Source: an uncultured Oscillospiraceae bacterium
Lineage (GTDB): Bacteria; Bacillota; Clostridia; Oscillospirales; Oscillospiraceae
Reading direction: 5' to 3'
NCBI GenBank assembly: GCA_944387065.1
Contig: CALXDM010000008.1
Location: 1-64,000, forward strand
DNA length: 64,000 nucleotides
Positions 173 through 63,512 of the stretch are shown here, piece after piece; within the stretch, counting starts at the first letter, position 1; each line of letters opens with the position of its first letter. The notes beneath the pieces were generated by a model. That model saw nothing but the letters and a program-made list of their open reading frames with translations, was not told where the DNA came from and made no database searches. The translations under genes and the position numbers were made by a program.

Positions 173-2389
173 TCACACCCGGTCCCGGCGCTCCAGCAGC
201 TCCAGCAGCAGCCGCTCGTTTTCCCGGGCGGCCTGGGCCAGCTGCTCGGACCGATCCCGCAGCCGGGCCAGGGTGCCGTCATAGTCAGCCATGAGCCGGT
301 CCACACAGTCCGCCGCGGCCGGGCCGTCAAAGTGTTCCACATGCCCCGCCGCAGGCATCCCAAGCTCCCGCAGGTAGCTGTCCACCTTGGGATCGTACAC
401 CAGGCCGACGCAGGGCACCGCCATGCGCGCGGCGAAGATCAGCGTGTGCAGGCGCATGGCCAGACACAGCTTGGACTGCCCCAGCACCGCCATGAGCTCC
501 TGGGGGACGCAGGGGGTGTCCAGCAGCCAGGAGGGCTCCTGCATAGCCTGGCGCACCGCCTGGGCAGCGGGCCGGTCCCGGTCAGGCTGCATCAGCAGGA
601 AGAGCACCTCCAGCCCATGGGCCCGGCGCAGGTGGTCGCACACCCCGGCCAGGGCCTGGGAAAACCCCTCCACCCCCGGCCAGGCCCGCACCGATACCAC
701 CGCGAAAGCCCGGTCCGCGGGCAGCCCGGCCTGGGCCACCAGCTCCCGGCCCCGCTGGGGCGGAGCAGGGACCAGGTTGAACACCGGGTCGGCGGTGACG
801 TACAAGTCCTCCCGCTTCACCCCCATGGCCCGCAACTCCTGCTGGGAGCTGCGATCCCGCAGGGTGACCAGGGCCGCCCGCTCCACCGCCCGCTTGACCC
901 GGCGGCGGTTGCCCGGCCTGCGCAGCGGGCCGATGCCGTTGGCGTAGAGCACCACCGGCCGGCCCAGCAGTCGGGCTGCGCCCATGACAGTCAGGTAGTA
1001 CATCAGGGAACGGGTGGAGGTCCTGTCCTGAAGCAGGCTGCCCCCCCCGGACAACAGCACATCGCAGCGGCGCAGGGCCTGGAACACCCGCCAGGCTCGG
1101 AACCGGGGCTCCGCCTGCACCTGGCACATCCGCTGGGTGAGACCAGGGGCGTTAGACAGCACTGTGATGTCCACCTGGTCGCTGGCCGCGGCGATGCCCT
1201 GGCAGATGGATTGCAGGATGGCGTCGTCCCCGGCGTTGGAGAAGCCGTAGTAGCCGCTCATCACCACCCGGTAACGGCGTTGGCGCACCTGCTCGTACAC
1301 CTCCAGGCAGTCCTGGGCCATCCGATGCACCGAGTACTGCTCCAAAACCACCTGGCGGCCGTATGAACCCAACTGCCCGCGCCGCTCCGGCTCTAACGCC
1401 AGAGCCGCGCGCACCTCGTCAAGCAGGCGCTGGGGGGTGGGCAGGGGAAAGCCCCGGCAGCAGAAGTTGCCCGCCTGGGCGGGGGCAAGCTGCTCCGGGG
1501 TGAACAGGCCCTGGCAGCCCTCGTTGCCCGCCAGGATCACCGGCTTGGCCGCCGCCATGGCCTCCAGCGCGGCCCGGGACACCCCCACGAACAGGTCCCC
1601 CGCGGCCACGATCCGGTTGATGTCCGCACGGGGCCCGGTCAGCACCACGCAGGGCCGCCCCAGCGTCCGGTTCACCTGGTCGGCCTTGGACTGGAGCTCC
1701 TCCAGCAGCTCGCCGCCCCCCACCAGCACCAGCTGGACGCCGGGGACGGCCCGCTCCAGCTCCGGAGCCAGCTCCACCAGCTGGCCGGCCACCAGGGCCC
1801 GGTCCCGATCCATCCGGCTGACATGGCAGAGCACCGGCCGGGCCGGATCCAGCCCCAGCTCGGTCAGCACCTCCTTCCGGGGCAGGTCGGGGGAGAACTT
1901 CTGGGTGTCGATGCCGTTGACGGTGACGCTGATGTGTCCCTCAGGCAAGTTGTACTCCTGGATCAGATATTCCTTGATGTCCTGGGACACGGCGATGGTG
2001 CGCTGGCCCCAATTGGTGAGGTAGCGCACCAGGCCCCGGTTCTCAAAGACCCAATGGGCCGTGGTGACAAAGGGGAAGCGCAGCTTCCGCCACAGGGTGG
2101 CGCACAGGAAGGCGGGGATGCGGGCATGGGCGTGAACCACGTCGGGCCGCTCCTGGCGCAGCACCTTTCGGAGCAGCGACCTGGCCCGGAGCATACACCG
2201 CAGGTCCCGGCGGTGCATGGGCACGCAGTAGTGGCGGATGCCCGCGGCCTCGATCTCGGGCACGTAGATCCCCCCGTTGGAGGCGATGGCCACGTCGTGC
2301 CCCTGGGCCCGGAGCTGCTTGGACAGCTCCACAATGTGGGTCTCCGCTCCGCCGATGTCCAGCCCCATGGTCGCCATCAGGATGCGCAT
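173..2389 (-). CDS. Fusion of family 4 glycosyltransferase and CsaB-like polysaccharide pyruvyl transferase
   Basis: 738-residue two-domain protein. Residues 1 to about 370 are a GT-B glycosyltransferase: the N-terminal MGLDIGGAETHIVELSKQL is the usual donor/acceptor loop, and an SRAALEAMAAAKPVI segment matches the GT4 nucleotide-sugar site. From about residue 374 the protein restarts with VVMSGYYGFSNAGDDAILQ, the signature of CsaB, which transfers pyruvate from PEP onto secondary cell-wall polysaccharide; LLSGGGSLLQDRTSTRS and RLHTLIFAA follow in the usual order. CsaB proteins are normally about 350-400 residues and free-standing. It is the last gene of an operon with a flippase and a polymer ligase, so it probably modifies a wall polymer at the inner membrane face. 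Domain calls are firm; the sugar acted on is unknown. Confidence 0.9.
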   Translation of the reverse strand: MRILMATMGLDIGGAETHIVELSKQLRAQGHDVAIASNGGIYVPEIEAAGIRHYCVPMHRRDLRCMLRARSLLRKVLRQERPDVVHAHARIPAFLCATLWRKLRFPFVTTAHWVFENRGLVRYLTNWGQRTIAVSQDIKEYLIQEYNLPEGHISVTVNGIDTQKFSPDLPRKEVLTELGLDPARPVLCHVSRMDRDRALVAGQLVELAPELERAVPGVQLVLVGGGELLEELQSKADQVNRTLGRPCVVLTGPRADINRIVAAGDLFVGVSRAALEAMAAAKPVILAGNEGCQGLFTPEQLAPAQAGNFCCRGFPLPTPQRLLDEVRAALALEPERRGQLGSYGRQVVLEQYSVHRMAQDCLEVYEQVRQRRYRVVMSGYYGFSNAGDDAILQSICQGIAAASDQVDITVLSNAPGLTQRMCQVQAEPRFRAWRVFQALRRCDVLLSGGGSLLQDRTSTRSLMYYLTVMGAARLLGRPVVLYANGIGPLRRPGNRRRVKRAVERAALVTLRDRSSQQELRAMGVKREDLYVTADPVFNLVPAPPQRGRELVAQAGLPADRAFAVVSVRAWPGVEGFSQALAGVCDHLRRAHGLEVLFLLMQPDRDRPAAQAVRQAMQEPSWLLDTPCVPQELMAVLGQSKLCLAMRLHTLIFAARMAVPCVGLVYDPKVDSYLRELGMPAAGHVEHFDGPAAADCVDRLMADYDGTLARLRDRSEQLAQAARENERLLLELLERRDRV

Positions 2390-2402
2390 GGCCCCACCCC
2401 GC

Positions 2403-2921
2403 TCACTGCCCCTGATCCCCTTGGGGGATCTGGATGTTCATCACCCGGCCCACAAAGCTGGCATACTTGGTGGTGAAGGTACGGTTGCTGTTCACCCCCA
2501 GGGCATACACCCGATTGAGCAGCACCGTCCCATCCGCCTCCACCAGGGCCTGGCCCTCAATGGTCAGCAGCAGGTCGTAGTAGCCCTGGGCGGGCACCAT
2601 GGCCACCGTGCCGTCGTCCAAGGAGGCCTGGTTGGTGCCGTCGCTGACCTGGATCTCGATGATCTCCCCCAGGGAGCCCCCGGTGCTCCGGGCCGGGTCA
2701 AACAGCTGATCCCCCTCCTGGATGGCCTCCAGCATCTCCTGGGGCTGGTTTTGCAGCCGCATCTGGTAGACCACCGGCACGGTGGCCACCGTGCTCCCCG
2801 TCTGGGGCATCTGGTTTTTCAGGTAGACGGCGGCCACCAGCACCCCGGCCACCACCAGCACGATCACGTCCAGGATGCTGATCTTGCCAAACAAACGGCC
2901 GTCCCGATCTATCAGCTTCAT
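2403..2921 (-). CDS. DUF4330 membrane-anchored protein (copy 2)
   Basis: 172 residues. The N-terminus MKLIDRDGRLFGKISILDVI followed by one hydrophobic segment (about residues 15-36) is typical of DUF4330. The rest is a beta-rich extracytoplasmic domain, so a single-pass protein facing outward. ATG start with GGAGGG upstream; its first four bases overlap the stop of the preceding gene. The family has no assigned biochemical role. It lies between two glycosyltransferase genes, which suggests a part in polymer assembly or export (inference). Confidence 0.8.
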   Translation of the reverse strand: MKLIDRDGRLFGKISILDVIVLVVAGVLVAAVYLKNQMPQTGSTVATVPVVYQMRLQNQPQEMLEAIQEGDQLFDPARSTGGSLGEIIEIQVSDGTNQASLDDGTVAMVPAQGYYDLLLTIEGQALVEADGTVLLNRVYALGVNSNRTFTTKYASFVGRVMNIQIPQGDQGQ

Positions 2922-3421
2922 GCCTGCCCCTCCCTTTCGATCTGCGTCACCCGGCCGCTGCCCATGTACCCTGGGCCCCGGGCGGTGATGGCCTGGCCCA
3001 CCCGGAAGTCATAGCCACCATCCAGCAGCAGCGCGTCCTCCTGCTGGGTGCAGGCGCTCTCCACCGTGATGTATACATCCTCATACCCCTCCAGCTGGGT
3101 CTGCACATAGCACCGGTTCTCCTGATCCAGCACCTGGGCCAGGGCCGGCTCAGCCCGGACGGACACCACGGTGCCCAGCCGATGGTTCTCCACCGTCTCC
3201 TCCAGCTGATCTCCCGGCTGGATCAGTTCGCTGTCCCCCTGGGCCATGCGCTGGATCAGGATGGTGTAGCGCACTGTGCCGGCGGCGCTCTCCTGCCCGC
3301 TTCCACCGTCGGATCGCAGCCCAAACCACACCAAGGCTCCCCCCACCACGAGCACCAGCACCAGGATGAGCCCGTCAAACAGGTTCAGCCGCAGGCGGAA
3401 TTTTGGATTACTCTGTTCCAT
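2918..3421 (-). CDS. DUF4330-like membrane-anchored protein (copy 1)
   Basis: 167 residues with the same build as its downstream neighbour: short cytoplasmic N-terminus (FRLRLNLFDGLILVLVLVV), one transmembrane segment, then a domain containing ERMAQ/EGDQL-like repeats shared with copy 2 (compare IQRMAQGDSELIQPGDQLEE with MLEAIQEGDQLFDPA). The two look like a divergent tandem duplication. Start ATG has AAGGAG upstream. The gene overlaps the glycosyltransferase before it by 14 bases, so translation is probably coupled. Function unknown. Confidence 0.75.
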   Translation of the reverse strand: MEQSNPKFRLRLNLFDGLILVLVLVVGGALVWFGLRSDGGSGQESAAGTVRYTILIQRMAQGDSELIQPGDQLEETVENHRLGTVVSVRAEPALAQVLDQENRCYVQTQLEGYEDVYITVESACTQQEDALLLDGGYDFRVGQAITARGPGYMGSGRVTQIEREGQA

Positions 3422-4538
3422 GGTTGTCTCCTTTCAGCACGTCCAGGTATACCTGCTCCACGTTCCGGGCAAAGCCCTGGCCGGTGAAGCGGGCCAAAAA
3501 TTGCTCCCGGGCCTGCCGGCCCAGCTGCGCCCGGGTGTCCGGCTGGTCCATCAGCCGGGCGATGGCGCCGGCCAGCGCCCCACTGTCCCGGCTGGGGAAA
3601 ATCAGCCCCGACATCCCGTCCTCTACAATCCACGGGTTGCCCCCGTAGCTGCTGGCAATCGTAGGCAGCCCCAGGCTCATCCCCTCCAGCAGGGCCAAGC
3701 TGGTGGCCTCGGTGCCATAGGAGGCGTTGAGCTGTACGTCCAGCAGGGACAACACCGGGGCCACATCGGACTGAAAGCCCAGGAAGAACACGGTGTCCTC
3801 CAGCCCCATCTGAGCCGCCTGGGCCCGCAGCCGTCCCTCCTCGCCGCCCGTGCCGGCCACCAGGATCTGAAGGCGCCGGCCTTCCTCCTTCAGCTGCCGG
3901 GCCGCCTCCAGGATGTGCTGGTGACCCTTATAGGGCTCCAGGCGGGCCAGGATGCCGGCGGTGAACACCCCTTCTGACAGCCCGTACTGCTCCCGCAGCG
4001 CCCGGCACGCTTCCGGGCCGCTGCGCGCCACCGGGGCCACCCCGTTGAGGATGACCCGGATGCGCCCTGCCGGCACCCCCGCGTCCACGAGGTTCTCCGC
4101 CGCGGCGGGGCTGACCGCGATGATCTGGTCGGCATAGCGCAGGTTCACCCACCGGTTGAGCCACCGCCCCGGGGGATAGCGCAGCTTGGCGCTCACGGGA
4201 AAGACCGAGTGGCGGGTGTACACCACCTTCTTCCCACACCGCCGGGCGGCGATGCGCCCGGACAGTGCGCCGTGGGTGTGCACCAGGTCGGGCCCCTCCC
4301 GACGGATCAGATCCACCAATGTCTGCACGTCCTGCCGGTGGTAGGACCGCTCAGCCATCCCCACCACCGGCAGCACCCGGGCCCCCGCCTGCTCCAGCGG
4401 AGTGGTCAGGGCGCTGCCCACCGGCACGGCCACCCAGGTCTCAAAGCGGTCCCGGTCGGCATAGCGCAGGTAGTTGAGGATCACCCGGCCCGCCCCGCCG
4501 ATGTTGCTGTCGCTGATGATGTTGAGCACCCGGATCAC
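3408..4538 (-). CDS. Family 4 glycosyltransferase
   Basis: 376 residues, GT-B fold. N-terminal SDSNIGGAGRVILNYLR is the glycine-rich loop; ARLEPYKGHQHILEAARQL (about residue 211) begins the nucleotide-sugar domain; YGTEATSLALLEGMSLGLP carries the E-x7-E pattern of retaining GT4 enzymes. The GTG start sits in a GTGA overlap with the ligase stop and has GGAGG seven bases upstream. It probably adds one sugar to a lipid-linked precursor on the cytoplasmic side. Donor and acceptor cannot be read from sequence. Confidence 0.9.
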   Translation of the reverse strand: MIRVLNIISDSNIGGAGRVILNYLRYADRDRFETWVAVPVGSALTTPLEQAGARVLPVVGMAERSYHRQDVQTLVDLIRREGPDLVHTHGALSGRIAARRCGKKVVYTRHSVFPVSAKLRYPPGRWLNRWVNLRYADQIIAVSPAAAENLVDAGVPAGRIRVILNGVAPVARSGPEACRALREQYGLSEGVFTAGILARLEPYKGHQHILEAARQLKEEGRRLQILVAGTGGEEGRLRAQAAQMGLEDTVFFLGFQSDVAPVLSLLDVQLNASYGTEATSLALLEGMSLGLPTIASSYGGNPWIVEDGMSGLIFPSRDSGALAGAIARLMDQPDTRAQLGRQAREQFLARFTGQGFARNVEQVYLDVLKGDNHGTE

Positions 4539-12789: not shown

Positions 12790-15029
12790 CCCAGCCCTTT
12801 TCTCCCCGCCGGCAGAGCCGCTGGGGCCTGGCTGTGCTGGCCGACGCTTTGCTGGTGACGGTGCTGCTGGCCGCTCTGGCCCGGTTCTGCCTGACCACCT
12901 ATCTGCAGCCCTTCTACTACGATCTCCTGGCCGTCTCCTTTGCCCCCACGGGCGGGCTGCTGCCCATCCCCCTGCTGCCCGCCCTGGGTGTATGTGTGGG
13001 GGCCGGATTGACGGCCACGGCGGTATGGTCGCTGCCCCGGTTTCGCTGGCTGGCGGCGGGGGTGCTGCTGGCAGCGGCAGGAGGGCTGCTCTACTACCAT
13101 CGGCTCCTGCTGTCCTGGGGTGCCCTGGCCCTGTGGGAAACCCTGTCCATCCTGTTCACCGACGCCACCGGCTTCCCCGGCTACTTCGTCTGGGACGCCC
13201 TGCTCTCCCCTACCCTACGGCAGCAGGCCATCCAGTCCCTGCTGGCCGCGGCGACGGCGCTGTATGCCCTGGCCCTGGCCTGGGCGGTGGTCCGGCTGCG
13301 CCGCTTTTGGCCCGTCTTTGCCCTCACCCTGCCCTGGCTGATCCCCGCCTTTCTGGCCGAGGTGGAGCTGGACTGGCCCGCCCTGATGGCGGTGTGTGCC
13401 TGCTGGGCCGCCCTGCTGCTGGCCAGCCTGTCCGCCCGGGCCGGACGGGAGGCCGGGGCCCGGGTGACCCTGCTGGCTCTGCCCGCCAGCCTAACCCTGA
13501 TCCTGGGAGTGTCTCTGGCCTTCCCCCGTCAGGACTATGTCCAGCCCACCTGGGCCACGGCAGCCCGGGATGAGTTGCTGGCCCTGGACTGGTTCGCTTC
13601 AGGCAGCCCCCTGGAGGGCGGCTTCTCTGACACTCCAAACGGTGGGACAGAAGCCCTGGCAGAACCCGAGGTGGACCTGTCCGCCGCCGGACCGCGGCGG
13701 TACACCGGCCGGGCGGTACTCCAGGTGGAGGCCACCCACGCCGGTCCCATGTACCTGCGGGGCCTGGTCTACTCCGACTACACCGGGTCGGCCTGGACGG
13801 GATTGCAGATCCACACCCTGTCCGGTCAGGCGGCCCAGGCCCTTGACGGAGCGGCCCAAGGCCTGTCCGCCGCCCGCATTCAGTCCCTGTCCGGCTCCAG
13901 CACCCTGGCCTACCTCCCCTATCGAACGGTGCAGGTCCAGGACGTCTCCACCGCCCCCGCCGCCGCCCTGGCCCTGCCAGAAGCCGTAGCGGCGTACAGC
14001 GTGTCCTACCTTCCCCTGAAAGGGGAGCCCATCCCGGAAGGGGAACTGGACAGCGCCGTCCTGGAGGGCGGCCTTTCCCGCTACCTGGAGGTTCCCCAGC
14101 AGGCTTCCGCCTTCCTGCACGCCTGGTATCAGCAGGCCCAGTGGGAGCTGGCGGACAGCGGCGTACAGCCCGCCGGTGGGGCCACAGGCCCCTACGCCTG
14201 GCAGCTCGACACCGCCGCCCAGATCGCCCAGCTGCTGGCCCGGAACGCCCAGTACGACCTGGGCGCCCCCGCCGTCCCAGAAGGGGAAGACTTCGTATCC
14301 CACTTCCTGGGGGAGAGCGGCCGGGGCTACTGCGTCCACTTCGCCAGCGCCGCCGCCCTGTTGCTGCGCCTGGAGGGGATCCCCGCCCGGTACGTCAGCG
14401 GCTACGCGGTGAATATCCCCGGCTCCGGCCAGGCCCAGGTGCTGGACTCCAACGCCCACGCCTGGGTGGAGATCTATCTGGAGGGCTACGGGTGGTACCC
14501 GGTGGAGGTCACCCCCTCCGTCCCCAGCCAGGAGGATCCGGAGCCCCAGCCCTCTGCCACACCCACCCCCACTCCCGCTCCATCCACCACTCCCTCCCGC
14601 GACCCGGAGTCAACCCTGGAGCCCGACGCAACTCTCCCCCCTCAGCAGACTCCCGGCGAGCAGGCGGAAACAGAAGCCGGCACCCCGATCTGGCTGGCCT
14701 GGGCCATCCCCCTGCTGGCTGTGCTGGCCGCCCCCTGGGTACTGTGGGGGCTGCGGCGGCTGGGCTGGCGGCGGCTGGAGCGCCGCCCGGACGCCAACGC
14801 CGCCGTGCTGGCCGCCTGGGTCTGGTTCCAACAGCTGGAGCGGTGGGGCGGTCAAGCCGGCCCCATGGCCCGGGAGCTGGCCGGCAAGGCCCGGTTCAGC
14901 CAGCACATTCTCACCCCGGAGGAACGGGGCCAGATGCTGGCCGAGCTGGGCCAGGAGATCCTTCGGGTTCGGCAGGGCCTACCCATGTGGAAGCGGCTGC
15001 CCTTTGCCCTGCTCTTCCCCCTGCCTTGA
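12786..15029 (+). CDS. Membrane transglutaminase-like (TgpA/DUF3488 type) protein
   Basis: 747 residues, ATGA overlap with the preceding gene. About six membrane helices in residues 15-245, then an extracytoplasmic region with a transglutaminase core at about 515-575: GRGYCVHFASAAALLLR (Cys nucleophile), SNAHAWVEIY (His) and GWYPVEVTPS, where the third catalytic position reads Glu rather than the classical Asp. A Pro/Thr-rich linker follows (about 580-620), then a further membrane helix near 635-655 and a cytoplasmic tail of DUF4129 character. Together with MoxR and DUF58 this is a common three-gene envelope operon. Confidence 0.92.
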   Translation: MTQPFSPRRQSRWGLAVLADALLVTVLLAALARFCLTTYLQPFYYDLLAVSFAPTGGLLPIPLLPALGVCVGAGLTATAVWSLPRFRWLAAGVLLAAAGGLLYYHRLLLSWGALALWETLSILFTDATGFPGYFVWDALLSPTLRQQAIQSLLAAATALYALALAWAVVRLRRFWPVFALTLPWLIPAFLAEVELDWPALMAVCACWAALLLASLSARAGREAGARVTLLALPASLTLILGVSLAFPRQDYVQPTWATAARDELLALDWFASGSPLEGGFSDTPNGGTEALAEPEVDLSAAGPRRYTGRAVLQVEATHAGPMYLRGLVYSDYTGSAWTGLQIHTLSGQAAQALDGAAQGLSAARIQSLSGSSTLAYLPYRTVQVQDVSTAPAAALALPEAVAAYSVSYLPLKGEPIPEGELDSAVLEGGLSRYLEVPQQASAFLHAWYQQAQWELADSGVQPAGGATGPYAWQLDTAAQIAQLLARNAQYDLGAPAVPEGEDFVSHFLGESGRGYCVHFASAAALLLRLEGIPARYVSGYAVNIPGSGQAQVLDSNAHAWVEIYLEGYGWYPVEVTPSVPSQEDPEPQPSATPTPTPAPSTTPSRDPESTLEPDATLPPQQTPGEQAETEAGTPIWLAWAIPLLAVLAAPWVLWGLRRLGWRRLERRPDANAAVLAAWVWFQQLERWGGQAGPMARELAGKARFSQHILTPEERGQMLAELGQEILRVRQGLPMWKRLPFALLFPLP

Positions 15030-15109
15030 CGTTTCCCCAGGGCTGTGCTATCCTGTGGATGAGCCGCCCGCCAGGCGGGGGCCATCCGATTGATACGGGA
15101 GGGATTGCC

Positions 15110-15600
15110 ATGTTCCGACCGATGCGCCGCCATCGCCAGGCCCTGTCCCATGAGGCGTGTGAGGCTGTGCTGCGCCGGGGCACCTCCGGCGTGCTGGCCC
15201 TGGCTGGGGATGACGGCTATCCCCCGTCCCCCTCAGCTACGTCTACCACAACGGCAAGCTCTACTTCCATTGCGCCAAGGCCGGGCACAAGCTGGACGCC
15301 ATCGCCCGCAGCCCCAAGGCCAGCTTCTGCGTTATCGACCAGGACCAGGTGGTGCCTCTGGAGTACACCACCTATTTCCGCAGCGTCATCGCCTTTGGGG
15401 TGGTGCGGGTGCTGGAAGACGAGGGGCAACAGCGCGCCGCCATTGAGCAGCTGGCCATCCGCTACGCCCCCCAGGACAGCCCCCAGCACCGCCAGCAGGC
15501 CATCCAGGCCGAGTGGAGCGCCCTTTGTATGCTGGAGATGGAGCTGCACCACCTGTCCGGAAAGCAGGCCAAGGAGCTGGCCCTGCCCAAAGGGGAATGA
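15110..15600 (+). pseudogene. Frameshifted PNPOx/NimA-like flavoprotein gene
   Basis: The ATG at 15110 (GGGAGGG upstream) starts MFRPMRRHRQALSHEACEAV and reads to GDDGYP. The frame then breaks near 15221-15226, and the next frame continues as SYVYHNGKLYFHCAKAGHKL through to TGA at 15598-15600. Together these resemble pyridoxamine 5'-phosphate oxidase-like/NimA-like FMN proteins of about 155-165 residues. Restoring four missing bases between TATCCC and GTCCCC would give the family-typical GYPYAVPLSY. The rest of both halves is intact, so this is either a recent mutation or an assembly error. Confidence 0.75.
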
Positions 15601-15640
15601 ACGCCCCCACAACTGCATCCTGCCGCCCGCCGGGGCGTTT
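15600..15640 (+). terminator. Terminator after the flavoprotein gene
   Basis: AACGCCCC pairs with GGGGCGTT across a 24-base loop, ending in TTTTG, beginning at the last base of the stop codon. Confidence 0.5.
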
Positions 15641-15654
15641 TGCTTGTGTAGTAG

Positions 15655-15692
15655 GCCCGCGTTACTGGTGTAACGCGGGCTTTTTATTTTTT
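15655..15692 (+). terminator. Strong intrinsic terminator
   Basis: Perfect 11-bp stem GCCCGCGTTAC with its complement, a TGGT loop, then TTTTTATTTTTT. The second terminator in tandem after the flavoprotein gene. Confidence 0.85.
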
Positions 15693-15706
15693 GGAGGTTG
15701 GAGCAG

Positions 15707-15796
15707 GTGCTGGGCCGGGTCTCCGCCTACCTGGTTCCCGCCGTGGTGGTGTGCTTGGGCGCTGTGTTGGCCGGATGGGGCGCGGCCCTGCTGTAA
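15707..15796 (+). CDS. Possible 29-aa hydrophobic peptide
   Basis: GTG at 15707 lies nine bases after GGAGG (a TTG at 15698 abuts the GGAGG and is too close). It would encode a peptide that is almost wholly one membrane segment (VSAYLVPAVVVCLGAVLAGW) and ends at TAA 15794-15796. It sits directly after a strong terminator, so a separate promoter would be needed and none is clear. Could be chance in GC-rich DNA. Confidence 0.3.
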   Translation: MLGRVSAYLVPAVVVCLGAVLAGWGAALL

Positions 15797-15821
15797 GCTC
15801 CGTCCCATGTGCAAAACGGCA

Positions 15822-15850
15822 TTGCCAAACGAGGGCATTTTGTGTAGAAT
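15822..15850 (+). promoter_or_regulatory. SigA-type promoter for the two-component system
   Basis: TTGCCA, 17-base spacer, TAGAAT, about 78 bases upstream of the response regulator GTG. Confidence 0.6.
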
Positions 15851-15927
15851 AGAATCTGATCCCATCTGTCATCTCCCGCCCCGCCGCGACCGGGGCCGGC
15901 CATCCTTGGAACCCGGAGGCGAATCCT

Positions 15928-58046: not shown

Positions 58047-59207
58047 TCAGCCGCTGCCCATGGCCTTTTTCATAGCGGCCTGGGCCGTCTCATAGCTGGC
58101 GTGGGCGTAGACATTGAGCGTCACCCCCACATCGGAATGTCCCATAAGATACTGCAGACTTTTCAGGTCGATCCCGCTGCTGGCCATCTCCGTACAAAAG
58201 GTATGCCGCAGCACATGGGGCGTGATGGAGGGCAGCTGATCCTCGTGGGTATCGTTGTACCGATCCACGATCCGCTTCATCACGTGTTCCAAGTGCATGG
58301 CTACCTTCGGCTTTCCATCCTTATCCAGGAACAGAAAGCCGGTGTGTCCGTCAATCAGCAGTTCCACCTTGGGCTGTTTGCGGCGCTGGACAGCGCTTTG
58401 AAACGCCCGATACACCGCATCGGTCATGGGGATATACCGCTCTCCGCTGGCCGTCTTGGGCTTCTCGATGTAATACTCGCAGTGCCTGGTCCGGGTCAGC
58501 TGCCGTTCCACCTTGATCCGCCGTGCCTCAAAATCAATGTCCGCTTTGGTCAGCCCATACAACTCGCTGACCCGCATGCCCGTCCCCAGCAGAATGACGA
58601 TCTCGTCGTAGTACTGGGAATAGTGCTTACTCTCCCGGATATATGCCAAGAACCTCTCCTTGACTTCTTTGGAAATTGCCTGCCGTGTCTGCGAATCGTT
58701 GGGCACCACATCGGTAATCTTGAAGGAGAAGGGATTGCGCCGGATAATATCGTCCTCCACCGCCATCTCAAAAGCCGGGCGCAGAACGCCCCGGACACTG
58801 GTGATGGTGCTGTACCTTCTTCCATCCTCGTGCAGCTTGATGAACCACTGCTTTTCGTCTGATGGCTTAATGTCACGAATCATCCGGTAGCCAAAGTCCT
58901 CTTTGCTGACCAGGTTCAAAACAAACTGATACCCCACCTTTGTGTTATACCGCACACCCGTTTTGGTGGCGATATAGCGGTGTAAGAGGTCAATAACCGT
59001 GATTTCTCCCGCAGCGTAGTTGATCCCGTCGTGGAGATCCTGCTGGATTTTTTGTTCCTTCTCCCGCAGTTGCTCCAAAGTCTTGGCATACACGCACTTG
59101 CGCTCTCCACGCACATCGGTATAGCGGTACATATAGGTGCCGTTTTGTCTCTGGCTTTCGCCGTCTCTCAATACCCGTCCTTTCCTGTCTTTTCGCCTTT
59201 CGGCCAT
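58047..59207 (-). CDS. int: Tn916-family tyrosine integrase
   Basis: 386 residues, AAGGAG before the ATG. N-terminal arm-binding domain (RRKDRKGRVLRDGESQRQNG with TYMYRYTDVRGERKCVYAKT), a SAM-like core-binding domain, and the catalytic domain: Arg in LGTGMRVSELYGL, His-x-x-Arg in TPHVLRHTFCTEMA, His in YLMGHSDVGVT and the nucleophile Tyr in LNVYAHASYE. Directs integration and excision. Faces the phosphatase gene at the element end, as in Tn916-like elements. Confidence 0.96.
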   Translation of the reverse strand: MAERRKDRKGRVLRDGESQRQNGTYMYRYTDVRGERKCVYAKTLEQLREKEQKIQQDLHDGINYAAGEITVIDLLHRYIATKTGVRYNTKVGYQFVLNLVSKEDFGYRMIRDIKPSDEKQWFIKLHEDGRRYSTITSVRGVLRPAFEMAVEDDIIRRNPFSFKITDVVPNDSQTRQAISKEVKERFLAYIRESKHYSQYYDEIVILLGTGMRVSELYGLTKADIDFEARRIKVERQLTRTRHCEYYIEKPKTASGERYIPMTDAVYRAFQSAVQRRKQPKVELLIDGHTGFLFLDKDGKPKVAMHLEHVMKRIVDRYNDTHEDQLPSITPHVLRHTFCTEMASSGIDLKSLQYLMGHSDVGVTLNVYAHASYETAQAAMKKAMGSG

Positions 59208-59280: not shown

Positions 59281-59475
59281 TTACACGGAATACTGCCCTT
59301 CCAGATACTTCTCGAAGGGCTTGCGCTTGATCAGACGCTTGTTCCCCACCCAGAGGACATAGGGGCAATCATCCGTATCTGTCAGGGAGCGGAGCTTGTT
59401 GATCCCGATCCCGTAGTAGGCCGCCGCTTCCTCCAGGGTCAGGTTTGCCTTTTCCCAAATGGGAACCGTCCGCAT
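59281..59475 (-). CDS. xis: Tn916-type excisionase
   Basis: 64 residues from the ATG at 59475 (AAGGTGG eight bases upstream). PIWEKANLTLEEAAAYYGIG, KLRSLTDTDDCPYVLWVGNK and RLIKRKPFEKYLEG match the winged-helix Xis family that directs excision with Int. It lies 73 bases upstream of int on the same strand, the normal order. Confidence 0.95.
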   Translation of the reverse strand: MRTVPIWEKANLTLEEAAAYYGIGINKLRSLTDTDDCPYVLWVGNKRLIKRKPFEKYLEGQYSV

Positions 59476-59557
59476 GAAAAACACCACCTTGGTTGGATTC
59501 CTAAAAAACTTAGGTGGTTTACTCTATACAAGTGTTTTCCCGGTTATCAGGGGACGG

Positions 59558-60520
59558 TCATTCCGTGTAGTTGTAGTGGTTGAAAACGATCTCCAGGCGG
59601 TTGTGGCCCATGGCCCCGCTGACGGCGGCGACCACCTGGGTGGGGTGTCCCCGGTAGGTGTCTCCGCAGTGTTTGTCCCGCCCGCTGAGATGGATGTAGT
59701 TCTGAGGAGTGAGGTCACCGCCAAACCAGGGCTTCTCCTGGGCCTGCTCCTGTTCCAGTTGACGGAGCAGGGCGGCGCAGTACTCGGCTCGGAAACGGTG
59801 GTTGTCGATGTGGCTGTCATAGACCCTAAAAAGGGGCTTGGTGGCTTCCTGGGCCTTATCCATGATGGAGGTCACCTGATCCTTATACTCGTTGAGAACG
59901 GGCGCTATACGCTCCTTACCGCCCTTTTCCACCAGCCTGATCCCCACCACTTGTCCCTTTCCATTCCGTACACAGTCGTTGGGGGTGATCCTTGTGATGG
60001 ACGCACGGCGGCACCCGCAGGCTTTGGCAACGGTGATCTGCTCCTGATACTTGGAAAACTGCCGCCTGTCGTTGGCCGTCTCCTCCCGGCTGCGAGTGAT
60101 TTCGGACTTCTTGCGCTGGCGCAGACCCAGTTCCCCCTTGCTGAGAGAAAAGCCCATTGCCTTGTTGATGGCGGATAAATCCCGGCTCACCGTCCAGGGG
60201 GACAGTCCTGCCCCCTCCCGCTCCCGGAGATAGGCAGCGGCGTGTGCCTCGGTGATCTGTCCGGCGTTCTTCACATTGTGGGCGGAACACCACTCCGCAA
60301 AGGGCTGCATAGCGGCCCGGTAGGTCTCCATGGTGCCAATGCTGAAAATCCCGTCCACTTTGGCGGGATTGTACCCGTCCAAATTTCCATGCTCTTTTAA
60401 GTACGCAGCTTTCGCCGCCTGTTTCGCCTCGTGCTTGCTCTGACCAAACCGGGCCAGCTTGGACAGCCGGTTCTGTAAGCCGCCCAAAATTCGCTTTGCC
60501 GCCCCTTTTAGCTTTTTCAC
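59558..60520 (-). CDS. Atypical tyrosine recombinase-like protein
   Basis: 320 residues from a GTG at 60520, eight bases after a perfect AAAAGGAGG; longer in-frame starts to 60565 lack a site. A basic N-terminus (KKLKGAAKRILGGLQNRLSK), then a SAM-like core-binding domain (METYRAAMQPFAEWCSAHNV). The C-terminal part keeps the catalytic pattern in reduced form: Arg in KACGCRRASITRITPNDC, a His-x-x-Arg-like SHIDNHRFRAEYCA, GH in AVSGAMGHNRLEI, and a terminal Tyr in FNHYNYTE. Distinct from the nearby Int, with no arm-binding domain. Whether it is active is unknown. Confidence 0.75.
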   Translation of the reverse strand: MKKLKGAAKRILGGLQNRLSKLARFGQSKHEAKQAAKAAYLKEHGNLDGYNPAKVDGIFSIGTMETYRAAMQPFAEWCSAHNVKNAGQITEAHAAAYLREREGAGLSPWTVSRDLSAINKAMGFSLSKGELGLRQRKKSEITRSREETANDRRQFSKYQEQITVAKACGCRRASITRITPNDCVRNGKGQVVGIRLVEKGGKERIAPVLNEYKDQVTSIMDKAQEATKPLFRVYDSHIDNHRFRAEYCAALLRQLEQEQAQEKPWFGGDLTPQNYIHLSGRDKHCGDTYRGHPTQVVAAVSGAMGHNRLEIVFNHYNYTE

Positions 60521-60699
60521 GGCAGGTTCCTCCTTTTTGCGCATAGCAAGTAACCGTGCGTGCATTTCATGTCCGCCCGTTTACTTGCCGCCCCTCCGAT
60601 GATAAAAATGGATTTTTTAGCGCAAATCCAAAACGCAAGGTGTTGAGACAAGCGCATTTTTTCAGATGGTTGCGCTTCCATCAGGGTTCCGTTCCCGTG

Positions 60700-60847
60700 C
60701 CCGTTTTTCCCGGCTGGAGGCCGGGAGAAAACGGGACACAGAAACGGCTTTGGGGTGTATCGCCCCCACCGTCAGCGGTTTCCAGTTGGAAACCGCTTGA
60801 CCCTCGTTGCCCTGGGGTTCTCTGTCCCTCCACGGCTGGCTGCCGTG
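60700..60847. repeat. Cluster of three inverted repeats
   Basis: 60700-60735: CCCGTTTT(T)CCCGGC with GCCGGG(AG)AAAACGGG around TGGAG. 60775-60796: GCGGTTTCC-AGTT-GGAAACCGC. 60831-60847: CACGGC-TGGCT-GCCGTG. Candidate structured RNA or conjugation/replication origin; no known family matched by eye. Confidence 0.6.
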
Positions 60848-61065
60848 TGGTGGATTGCCCTGTTGTCGTAACACCTGCGCTTGAGAAACCTGTTGTCTGT
60901 CTGACCTCCTTTTCTGATCCCTGAGATTGATACGGCATGGTGCCGTGCCTGCTGTCGATGTGGCCCTGATGCTTCTTGCGATGAAGAACCGCCCTGTTTT
61001 TGTGACTTGGTTTCTCTTTGCCGAGTTAGGTCTGTCTTACAATATACAAATCCCGAAAAAATTAT

Positions 61066-61112
61066 CAGCACCCACGGCAAAAAGTTACTGCCGTGGGTGC
61101 TGTGTCTGTTTT
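61066..61112 (+). terminator. Terminator-like hairpin upstream of the RM operon
   Basis: 14-bp perfect stem CAGCACCCACGGCA with its complement, 9-base loop AAAAGTTAC, then TGTCTGTTTTT. It would insulate the operon from upstream transcription or end a short RNA starting in the gene-free stretch. Confidence 0.65.
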
Positions 61113-61123
61113 TGATCCTTCTG

Positions 61124-61152
61124 TTGATTTTATTCGCTTTTTCGACTATAAT
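61124..61152 (+). promoter_or_regulatory. Consensus SigA promoter for the RM operon
   Basis: TTGATT, 17-base spacer, perfect TATAAT, about 40 bases before the small HTH gene. Confidence 0.8.
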
Positions 61153-61192
61153 ATACTTAACGCAATATACGTCTAAGTCCCTGGAGGTTCTT

Positions 61193-61381
61193 ATGAAGTA
61201 TCTTTCCATCAAAGAGATGTCCGAGAAGTGGGGGATCTCCACCCGCCGTATCCAGATCCTCTGCAAAGAGGGCCGTATCCCAGGAATTATCATGATCGGC
61301 CGCACCTGGGGAATACCGGAGGATGCGGAAAAACCGGCGGACGCAAGGATCAAGAGCGGGAAATATGTTAAGCGGCCCTGA
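61193..61381 (+). CDS. Small helix-turn-helix protein
   Basis: 62 residues, GGAGG before the ATG. YLSIKEMSEKWGISTRRIQI LCKEGRIPG is a MerR/excisionase-like winged helix, continuing IMIGRTWGIPEDAEKPADAR with a basic tail. Such proteins occur near mobile elements and may be DNA-binding regulators or excisionase-like. It is the first gene of the RM transcript, so it could control RM expression (inference). Confidence 0.85.
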   Translation: MKYLSIKEMSEKWGISTRRIQILCKEGRIPGIIMIGRTWGIPEDAEKPADARIKSGKYVKRP

Positions 61382-61417
61382 CTTAAAAATATAAATCACA
61401 TTCATGGAGGATAAGTA

Positions 61418-61966
61418 ATGTCAAACTTTGAAAAAATCATGACAATTATCAATGTTATTGCAATCATTGCAATTCCGATTGTCGCTGTATTTGTAGGGCA
61501 ATATTTACAGAATAGAAGTCAACAGCGTAAAGATAAACTTGATATTTTCAAAACATTGATGATGAACCGTGTCGGTTGGTCTGTTGAAAGTGTCCACGCT
61601 ATGAATGTTATAGATATCGTGTTTGCCAAAGACAAGAATGTTGGGAGTAAGTGGAAAGATTATTACACCCTACTCTGTATCCAAGAGCCAAACGATATGC
61701 AGAAACAGCAAATTCAAACTGCACAGCACAAGTTATTAGAGGCTATGGCAATTTCATTAGGATATAAAGAACAAATAACATGGGAAACCATTCAGAACCC
61801 TTATATTCCAAAAGGCATGATAGATGCCATGCAGCAACAACAGATAATCCAGCTTGGACAGGAAAAGTGGGCCGGTGCTATGGACGCATTCACCCAAATG
61901 TTTGGGAAGGGCCCTTCGTTCCAGCAGCCAGCAGAGCGGGAGGATACACACCATGCCGACACTTGA
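61418..61966 (+). CDS. Membrane-anchored protein of unknown function, RM-associated
   Basis: 182 residues, GGAGG seven bases before the ATG. One N-terminal membrane segment (IINVIAIIAIPIVAVFVGQY) then a soluble helical domain with KLDIFKTLMMNRVGWSVESV, NVIDIVFAKDKNVGSKWKDY and HKLLEAMAISLGYKEQI. May belong to DUF6680, but this is from memory and not certain. AT-rich for its first 400 bases and GC-rich near the end. Overlaps the mod start by 14 bases, so translation is coupled to the methyltransferase. Confidence 0.8.
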   Translation: MSNFEKIMTIINVIAIIAIPIVAVFVGQYLQNRSQQRKDKLDIFKTLMMNRVGWSVESVHAMNVIDIVFAKDKNVGSKWKDYYTLLCIQEPNDMQKQQIQTAQHKLLEAMAISLGYKEQITWETIQNPYIPKGMIDAMQQQQIIQLGQEKWAGAMDAFTQMFGKGPSFQQPAEREDTHHADT

Positions 61967-63512
61967 ATGGATCGGAAAAGATAAAGTCATCAACCACCAC
62001 CAGGAGGTGCCCTTCCGGGTGCTGGAGCGCCGGTACAGCTATGACGAGTCCGGACAGCACGACGAGGACAACGGCAGTGAGAACATGATCATCCGGGGCG
62101 ACAATCTGGAGGCACTGAAAGCTCTGCTGCCCCGGTACGAGGGCCGGGTGAAGTGCATCTACATCGATCCTCCCTATAACACTGGCAACGAGGGTTGGGT
62201 GTATAACGACAATGTGAACGACCCCAGGATCAAGAAGTGGCTGGGCGAGGTGGTAGGCAAAGAGGGGGAGGATCTGACCCGCCACGACAAGTGGCTGTGC
62301 ATGATGTACCCCCGACTGAAACTGCTACATAAGCTGCTGTCGGAGGATGGGGTTATTTTTATCAGCATTGATGATAATGAACAGGCACATCTAAAGCTGA
62401 TTTGTGACGAAATATTTGGGAAAAGCAATTTTATTGAAACGATAATATGGGATAAAAAGGCTGGCGCAAAAGGTGTTCCTCCGCGCAGTATGCTTGTAAA
62501 TGTTCATGAATATATTATAGCTTATTCAAAAAACTCTAATTTTAAGTTTATAGGTGAAAGACGCCTTGCGGAAGCAGAGGGTTTTAGTAATCCAGACAAT
62601 GATCCACGAGGACCATGGAGAATGTCGAACATTAAAAGCACGACCAAATCCAAGGATGAAGCATTCACAATAGTTGACCCAACAACTGGAAAACAGTATA
62701 CGAATACATGGGCGTTTTCAGCTGCTTCGCTTGAAAAAATGATACGAGAGGGACGGATATTGTGGAAGAAATCATTGCCGAAGCAGAAAGAATTCCTCTA
62801 TGAAATGAAAAATCCTAACAAGGCAATCAAAACAACATGGGGTGTTTTTGATCCGCAAAGTACGACGGTTTTTCTAAAAGAAATTTTACCAAACGAGAAG
62901 TTTGATAATCCAAAGCCTATTAAACTAATAGATTATTTGGTACAAGTTTCGGTAGGACCCAATGATATCATTCTCGACTCCTTCGCCGGTTCCGGCACCA
63001 CCGCCCACGCCGTCCTCAACATGAACAAAGCCGACGGCGGGCACCGCAAATTCATCCTGGTGGAGATGATGGACTACGCCGACAGTATCACCGCCGAGCG
63101 GGTGAAGCGGGTAATCCAGGGCTACGGCGAGGGCAAAAAGGCGGTGGAGGGCACCGGCGGCAGTTTCAGCTTCTACGATCTGGGGGAGCCGCTGCTGATT
63201 GGGGAGTGCCTCAACGAGTCCGTGGGGGCGGACAAGATCCGGGAGTACATCTGGTTTATGGAGACCAAAGCGCCCTATGCCCCGGCTTCCGGGGAGAACC
63301 CCTACTATCTGGGGACCTGCAACGACACCGGTTACTATTTCTACTATGAGCCGGAACAGGTGACGGTGCTGGACTATCAGTTCCTGTCCACGGTCACGGA
63401 GAAAAGCGGCAGTACGGTCATCTACGCCGACCGCTGCTCCATCGGGGCGGACAAGCTGGCCCAGATGGGGATCGTGTTTAAGAAGATTCCCAGAGACATC
63501 AGCAGACTGTAA
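61953..63512 (+). CDS. mod: Type III restriction-modification DNA methyltransferase (Mod)
   Basis: 519 residues from ATG 61953 (GGGAGG upstream, inside the preceding gene). Beta-class N6-adenine methyltransferase order: catalytic IYIDPPYNTGNEGW at about residue 72 comes before the SAM motif DSFAGSGTTAHAVL at about 344. The region between (about residues 130-339) is the target recognition domain and is clearly AT-rich, unlike the GC-rich flanks. The C-terminus (DYADSITAERVKRVIQGYGE; GENPYYLGTCNDTGYYFYY) is typical of Mod. Methylates one strand of a short asymmetric site and gives Res its specificity. Confidence 0.96.
   Translation: MPTLEWIGKDKVINHHQEVPFRVLERRYSYDESGQHDEDNGSENMIIRGDNLEALKALLPRYEGRVKCIYIDPPYNTGNEGWVYNDNVNDPRIKKWLGEVVGKEGEDLTRHDKWLCMMYPRLKLLHKLLSEDGVIFISIDDNEQAHLKLICDEIFGKSNFIETIIWDKKAGAKGVPPRSMLVNVHEYIIAYSKNSNFKFIGERRLAEAEGFSNPDNDPRGPWRMSNIKSTTKSKDEAFTIVDPTTGKQYTNTWAFSAASLEKMIREGRILWKKSLPKQKEFLYEMKNPNKAIKTTWGVFDPQSTTVFLKEILPNEKFDNPKPIKLIDYLVQVSVGPNDIILDSFAGSGTTAHAVLNMNKADGGHRKFILVEMMDYADSITAERVKRVIQGYGEGKKAVEGTGGSFSFYDLGEPLLIGECLNESVGADKIREYIWFMETKAPYAPASGENPYYLGTCNDTGYYFYYEPEQVTVLDYQFLSTVTEKSGSTVIYADRCSIGADKLAQMGIVFKKIPRDISRL

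Follow-up and report, generated by a model that had tools for sequence, protein, structure and literature searches.

We examined a segment of 672 nucleotides (positions 60521-61192) in the window, by which we mean the whole 64,000-nucleotide stretch of DNA that was analysed. On one side of this segment lie three minus-strand genes: 1) a Tn916-type integrase (Int1; 58047-59207), which matches the Pfam models PF00589 and PF02920; 2) a Tn916-type excisionase (Xis; 59281-59487; PF09035); 3) a second tyrosine recombinase of 320 residues (Int2; 59558-60520), recognised by a PF02899 match, its catalytic residues and its GTG start. On the other, cargo side are plus-strand genes, namely an HTH_17 gene (61193-61381) and a DUF6680 gene (61418-61966), both detected with Pfam, followed by a type III methyltransferase (61953-63512) with the restriction subunit next to it. 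The list of open reading frames gives 60565 as the start of Int2; the GTG at 60520 is preceded by AAGGAGG, and a purine-rich ribosome-binding sequence precedes a GTG or ATG at this position in all five sequences compared. With Int2 beginning at this GTG and the HTH gene at 61193, the segment between them is intergenic, which agrees with the left limit of 60521 in a preliminary description of this DNA. The claim made there that the roughly 670 bases contain no credible gene was likewise borne out: the reading frames of 62-193 residues that overlap the segment are broken by single-base insertions and deletions between homologues. A translated search with TBLASTN, using one reading frame of the block against plasmids, recovered no match. 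The part from 60521 to 61068, delineated as a conserved, structured noncoding block by homology, alignment, folding and base-pair changes and not assigned to either strand, has a G+C content of 52.7% as against 64.6% for the window.

To place these genes in context we compared them with homologous loci. Two of these, L030 and L031, display both ends of an integrated island, with terminal repeats 9,994 and 4,124 bp apart respectively, and each island has its own Tn916-type integrase. Their far ends retain the peptide MIKVLFVCHGR or MCLHRILFVCHGR, a remnant of the start of a low-molecular-weight phosphatase gene, the gene itself being situated at the other end; in both islands a hairpin of the type GCCCCAGG...CCTGGGGC stands beside this attachment-site remnant. 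The left end of the island is also present in the window, and its contig stops at 66219 before any right end. Of the features of integrative and mobilizable elements, an integrase and excisionase of their own and flanking attachment-site repeats were found, the two ends being visible in L030 and L031 and the left one alone in the window. The main open reading frames of the L031 island code for Int1, a 68-residue protein of the size of Xis, Int2 and a single 225-residue protein that matches nothing in Pfam or PADLOC, and no relaxase, Rep or conjugation gene was recognised among them. Our first impression of the 225-residue cargo protein as HEPN-like found no support in Pfam, PADLOC or PHROGs. 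In the host assembly (99% complete) we detected neither a canonical relaxase nor a coupling protein: PF02534, PF03432 and PF02486 are without a match, and the one match to PF12846 falls under its cut-off. At a third locus, L032, Int2 and the block are flanked by a large serine recombinase on one side and a resolvase-type gene on the other. Comparison of the latter with L030 and L031 indicates that the Int2-plus-block module occurs in differing integration systems and with differing cargoes. Moreover, since the islands have a Tn916-type integrase besides Int2, the latter is not needed for integration.

The cargo side shows several further differences between loci. Within the type III methyltransferase gene, a central part (62434-62960) has no BLASTN match to L030, the flanks being 90-94% identical, and looks as if its target-recognition part had been swapped. 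The gene between the HTH gene and the methyltransferase also differs, coding for the DUF6680 protein in the window (61418-61966) versus another 183-residue protein in L030 (L030:6083-6634); these two proteins have a common C-terminal EDTHHADT tail. A relative of the HTH gene is found on a Pusillibacter plasmid (L033; NZ_AP023421.1), between mobC and a restriction-modification-like cluster, and a plasmid DNA search returned a single record with the match confined to the HTH gene.

We then assessed how widely the block and Int2 are distributed. One scan of genome contigs recovered Int2 relatives at L030, L031 and L032 with 92, 84 and 80% identity respectively; L006 and L036 (G315) match as L032 does, on a contig of equal length, and were taken as the same locus. 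Genome G400 has two partial copies, one in which Int2 breaks off after some 29 residues (L049, identical with L022) and the other with part of the block only (L047); the block fragments at both of these loci lie near genes that resemble, by eye, those for leucine-rich surface proteins. Among 300 genomes of the family, a DNA search recovered two, comprising the genome of the window itself and a weak 51-bp match to 61111-61161, and among 391 genomes of the class (E 1e-6) it recovered the window's own genome alone. At the level of the order (E 0.01), 13 of 394 genomes were hit, with long matches in G000, G315 and G400. The matches in the ten others are pieces of 20-36 bp that we treated as chance, three of the ten loci having been inspected for reading frames. 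A protein search with Int2 found relatives in 20 of the 394 order genomes, only that of G315 being close (80%) and that of G400 a fragment. A covariance model recovered five of the 394 genomes, i.e. G000, G315, G400 and two weak matches judged to be chance, no recombinase being noticed among their open reading frames. The phage DNA search yielded no match; viral contigs contained neither an Int2 relative nor a match to the patterns of two invariant segments of the block (blocks 1 and 2, below), and with Int1 as query they gave one relative at 25% identity.

Homology to the window stops at 61014 in L031, 61068 in L032 and 61071 in L047. Just at this border lies a perfect 14-bp stem (61066-61079/61089-61102), which is found in the window and L030 and is absent from L031, L032 and L047; T-rich DNA follows it on either strand, and the terminator scan calls it terminator-like on the minus strand only. 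Taken together, these end points and absences show that the conserved unit consists of Int2 (59558-60520) and about 550 bp upstream of it, to about 61068, with the stem marking the cargo border. Hence, of what had been described as a 14-bp terminator stem the stem itself (61066-61102) is real but lies outside the conserved unit. The proposal of a structured RNA ending at 61112, possibly with a role in defence, finds no support, as in three loci homology does not extend past the beginning of this stem. The gene contexts give it none either: in the window, L030, L031 and L032 the block and Int2 occur side by side despite changes of integrase type and cargo, and the promoter-like site retained by most homologues (see below) points the opposite way. 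The block is tied to the recombinase gene and not to the defence genes.

Examination of the block revealed a series of structural elements. Closest to Int2 is block 1 (60546-60588), an imperfect palindrome that is nearly invariant in five sequences, followed by block 2 (60638-60683), a nearly invariant stretch of 46 nucleotides that holds a stem of 5-7 bp; neither is assigned to a strand. Block 2 opens a multi-hairpin domain (60638-60876, annotated on the minus strand), which is closed by a long-range helix pairing 60638-60651 with 60863-60876. Within the domain are four hairpins, again without strand assignment: hairpin A (60689-60747), with arms at 60697-60714 and 60720-60737 in the inverted-repeat listing; hairpin E (60751-60768); hairpin B (60771-60801), with arms at 60774-60784 and 60787-60797; and hairpin C (60831-60847), whose 6-bp arms fall below the length limit of that listing and are visible in the folds. 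The three hairpins in 150 bases noted in the preliminary description were recovered at 60697-60847. The minus strand of 60566-61030 folds at -174.3 kcal/mol (z -5.6) and the plus strand of 60566-61112 at -205.6 kcal/mol (z -5.5), and in both cases none of 100 dinucleotide shuffles was as low. For the domain alone, the z-scores on the Int2-sense and the other strand are respectively -8.5 and -7.6 in the window, -7.9 and -7.1 in L030, -6.8 and -8.1 in L031, and -4.1 and -2.4 in L032.

The covariation check that had been called for in homologues gave a divided result. Across 63 pairs in six sequences, 94.1% of the cells pair and four pairs show two-sided changes, a number reached by 4 of 500 shuffles; a control slid by +1 also has four two-sided pairs, but only 48% of its cells are paired. 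In a 119-column alignment 3 of 26 pairs changed on both sides (7 of 500 shuffles), with none in the slid controls. Two of the pairs with two-sided changes belong to hairpin B and one to hairpin C; hairpin E has two such pairs in L032 with a hand-placed gap, and none in the MAFFT alignment as it stands. Thus, some stems do keep their pairing through two-sided changes, mostly contributed by a single lineage, that of L032, but further pair types are no more frequent than in shuffles (275 of 500). The structure of the block is supported by both the folding and the two-sided changes. Against Rfam release 15 the window has no match at the gathering threshold, and the seven weak matches in 60400-61420 have E-values up to 5, all far under threshold.

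We also searched for signals of transcription. A promoter scan identified a promoter-like site (CTGATA-16 nt-TATATT; 61068-61041) on the minus strand, directed towards Int2, and counted three promoter-like sites in 60400-61420 compared to a mean of 0.7 in shuffles; the boxes recur in L032 and L047 with another spacer. Inspection by eye further revealed a weak terminator-like hairpin followed by TTTTT on the minus strand (60609-60630), which is not among the calls of the terminator scan. The position of the promoter-like site, about 0.5 kb upstream of and aimed at Int2, raises the alternative that Int2 is controlled by RNA, the block acting as a long structured 5' leader or as a separate small RNA. 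Such an RNA would be consistent with the strong fold, which is deeper on the Int2-sense strand in three of the four homologues, and with a terminator-like hairpin ahead of Int2 in the window. However, the promoter-like boxes are lost in L031 and the terminator-like hairpin in L032, no Rfam family fits, and the counts of wobble pairs favour neither strand (9 versus 7; 15 versus 16 in the sense fold; 15 versus 40 in the antisense fold). We accordingly regard control of Int2 by an RNA as an improbable account of the block.

Turning to the recombinase, Int2 contains a PF02899 core-binding domain (residues 75-135 of the reading frame; E 1.3e-6, above the cut-off), and an alignment of Int2, the L032 protein and seven relatives with 23-30% identity to Int2 shows that R, K, HxxR, H and Y, including the nucleophilic tyrosine, are invariant in all nine sequences. 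The structure model of Int2 has a mean pLDDT of 57. One of the seven relatives comes from one of two loci in G608; as read by eye, these loci code for a Tn916-like integrase, an Xis-like protein, a 137-residue protein and the recombinase. The two G608 loci (L057 and L058) have a common chassis of 2.79 kb that is 88.6% identical, and then carry different cargo, of which one gene matches PADLOC HKD+Snf2 (a helicase), with no Pfam or PADLOC match at the other locus.

Int2 relatives also occur on plasmids, and the eight records examined are all typed as non-mobilizable, although the typing may not know relaxases of such a kind. The gene-free gap upstream of the relative measures 842 nucleotides in pATHE02, 685 in S. 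suis 3366, and 863 and 872 before the two recombinase copies of a Flavonifractor plautii plasmid. Nothing is annotated across the 1,338 nucleotides before the gene in pYA01-1, or across 2,733 in pRKC30SC1, a sparsely annotated record; in the remaining three records the gap crosses the record start. In the two Caldicellulosiruptor plasmids the gap and the gene are conserved to a like degree, with pATHE02 and pYA01-1 being 79.6% identical over 837 nucleotides of gap and 77.8% over 944 nucleotides of gene. The pATHE02 gap folds with a z-score of -3.0 (30 shuffles). A motif common to the block and these distant relatives was at about the level of chance, since for 3 of 48 local alignments no more than 3 of 100 shuffles did as well, and a pattern search gave it no strengthening. 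In the Flavonifractor plasmid (L071; NZ_CP095095.1) each copy (2151-3961 and 14057-15866) comprises the tyrosine recombinase and then a 258-residue gene of unknown function, each behind the gap of about 0.87 kb. The 8.7-kb Natranaerobius plasmid pNTHE02 (L072) codes for IscB and has two integrase genes, one of which is the Int2 relative.

The full catalytic set and the core-binding domain raise the possibility that Int2 is an ordinary site-specific recombinase, which would resolve multimers of the excised circle or exchange modules, with block 1 as its site and the hairpins as accessory or regulatory elements. Block 1 itself is long and palindromic, pATHE02 and pYA01-1 have upstream of their recombinase gene a palindrome whose ends are the same, AAGTAAAC and GGTTACTT, and multimer resolution would be useful on the small plasmids in which relatives reside. 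We nevertheless consider this unlikely on the whole: the half sites of the palindrome are separated by 27 bp in the window versus 14 bp in the plasmids, a single-copy integrated island has little use for resolution, and a recombination site needs no ~500 bp of conserved multi-hairpin DNA. The small plasmids with relatives also have Rep genes, which brings up a replication element of the excised circle, i.e. a single-strand or double-strand origin. Single-strand origins of a size comparable to that of the block's structure are known. On the other hand, the block is linked to Int2, and neither a Rep gene among the main L031 reading frames nor a PF02486 match in the host assembly was found, such that an origin of replication seems to us very improbable.

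Tyrosine-recombinase-type proteins with origins of transfer upstream of their genes offer a closer precedent. The oriT lies in a 456-bp region upstream of the gene for MobK of pIGRK (PMC8152469), that of TcpM of pCW3 is 150 bp upstream of its gene (PMC6137059), and that of MpsA of SGI1 is a 125-bp oriT upstream of its gene, with an essential small RNA between them (PMC6414798, PMC9299015); MobK, TcpM and MpsA are reported to be without a core-binding domain (PMC8152469). Like Int2, MobK has directly upstream a noncoding region of about 0.5 kb with inverted repeats, but it differs in the lack of that domain, and pIGRK is a plasmid whose oriT activity was demonstrated (PMC8152469). SGI1 resembles our islands in being integrated, in having its own integrase and a tyrosine-recombinase-type protein, MpsA with MpsB, and in the GC-rich inverted repeats and noncoding region upstream. 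By contrast, it is much larger, belongs to Gammaproteobacteria, assigns to the separate MpsB the core-binding function that Int2 holds in the same protein, and is the only one of the two for which an RNA (sgm-sRNA) was shown (PMC6414798, PMC9299015). The pCW3 plasmid is likewise a clostridial element with a tyrosine-recombinase-like relaxase and an oriT upstream of its gene, but it is self-transmissible with its own transfer genes (PMC6137059), and TcpM is reported to be without the core-binding domain that Int2 has. As for Tn916, Int1 and Xis match the Pfam models of its integrase and excisionase; unlike it, the L031 island has no recognised conjugation genes, and insertion is at the start of the phosphatase gene. 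The likeness of Int2 to MobK, TcpM and MpsA is one of layout, and as it has the core-binding domain that they reportedly lack, we do not file it with them. A literature search within a limited collection and set of terms recognised no paper describing the Int2-plus-block module.

Given the layout, the separate integrase and the lack of a recognised relaxase in L031, a role in transfer is the best single explanation of the module, and we tentatively propose, at a likelihood just short of even, that Int2 and the block (60521 to ~61068) might serve a small integrative island as an atypical mobilization module. Among the candidates of the preliminary description, a putative origin of transfer suits this context best: a conserved structured block lies directly upstream of a tyrosine recombinase gene, in small integrated islands with an integrase of their own. 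In the proposed mechanism, Int1 and Xis would excise the island, and Int2 would then use block 1, block 2 or both, which precede its gene, as the oriT. The multi-hairpin domain would work as a single-stranded DNA structure, as an RNA from the promoter-like site, or as both, and a helper element would supply the conjugation pore that moves the strand. As the host assembly has no PF02534, PF03432 or PF02486 match, the helper would have to be external or of a different type. Nicking, transfer, transcription and the use of a helper are what we infer here for a block that is noncoding, conserved and structured and that keeps company with Int2 across integrase types and cargoes. A more specific and somewhat doubtful version is that Int2 might unite in one protein what MpsB and MpsA do as two, as a recombinase serving as relaxase with a multi-hairpin RNA or single-stranded DNA from its own upstream region. 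The module would then represent a new mobilization class of gut Clostridia and act as an interchangeable chassis on which islands replace their defence genes.

In streptococci, some integrated islands code for an integrase without any known relaxase, and their route of movement is unknown (PMC5357655). If the proposed role is true, Int2 and its upstream block would explain the mobility of such relaxase-less islands, and more of them could be sought by looking for a second tyrosine recombinase gene that is preceded by a long, structured stretch free of genes. The block may thus help small islands of gut bacteria that carry defence genes to move between cells.
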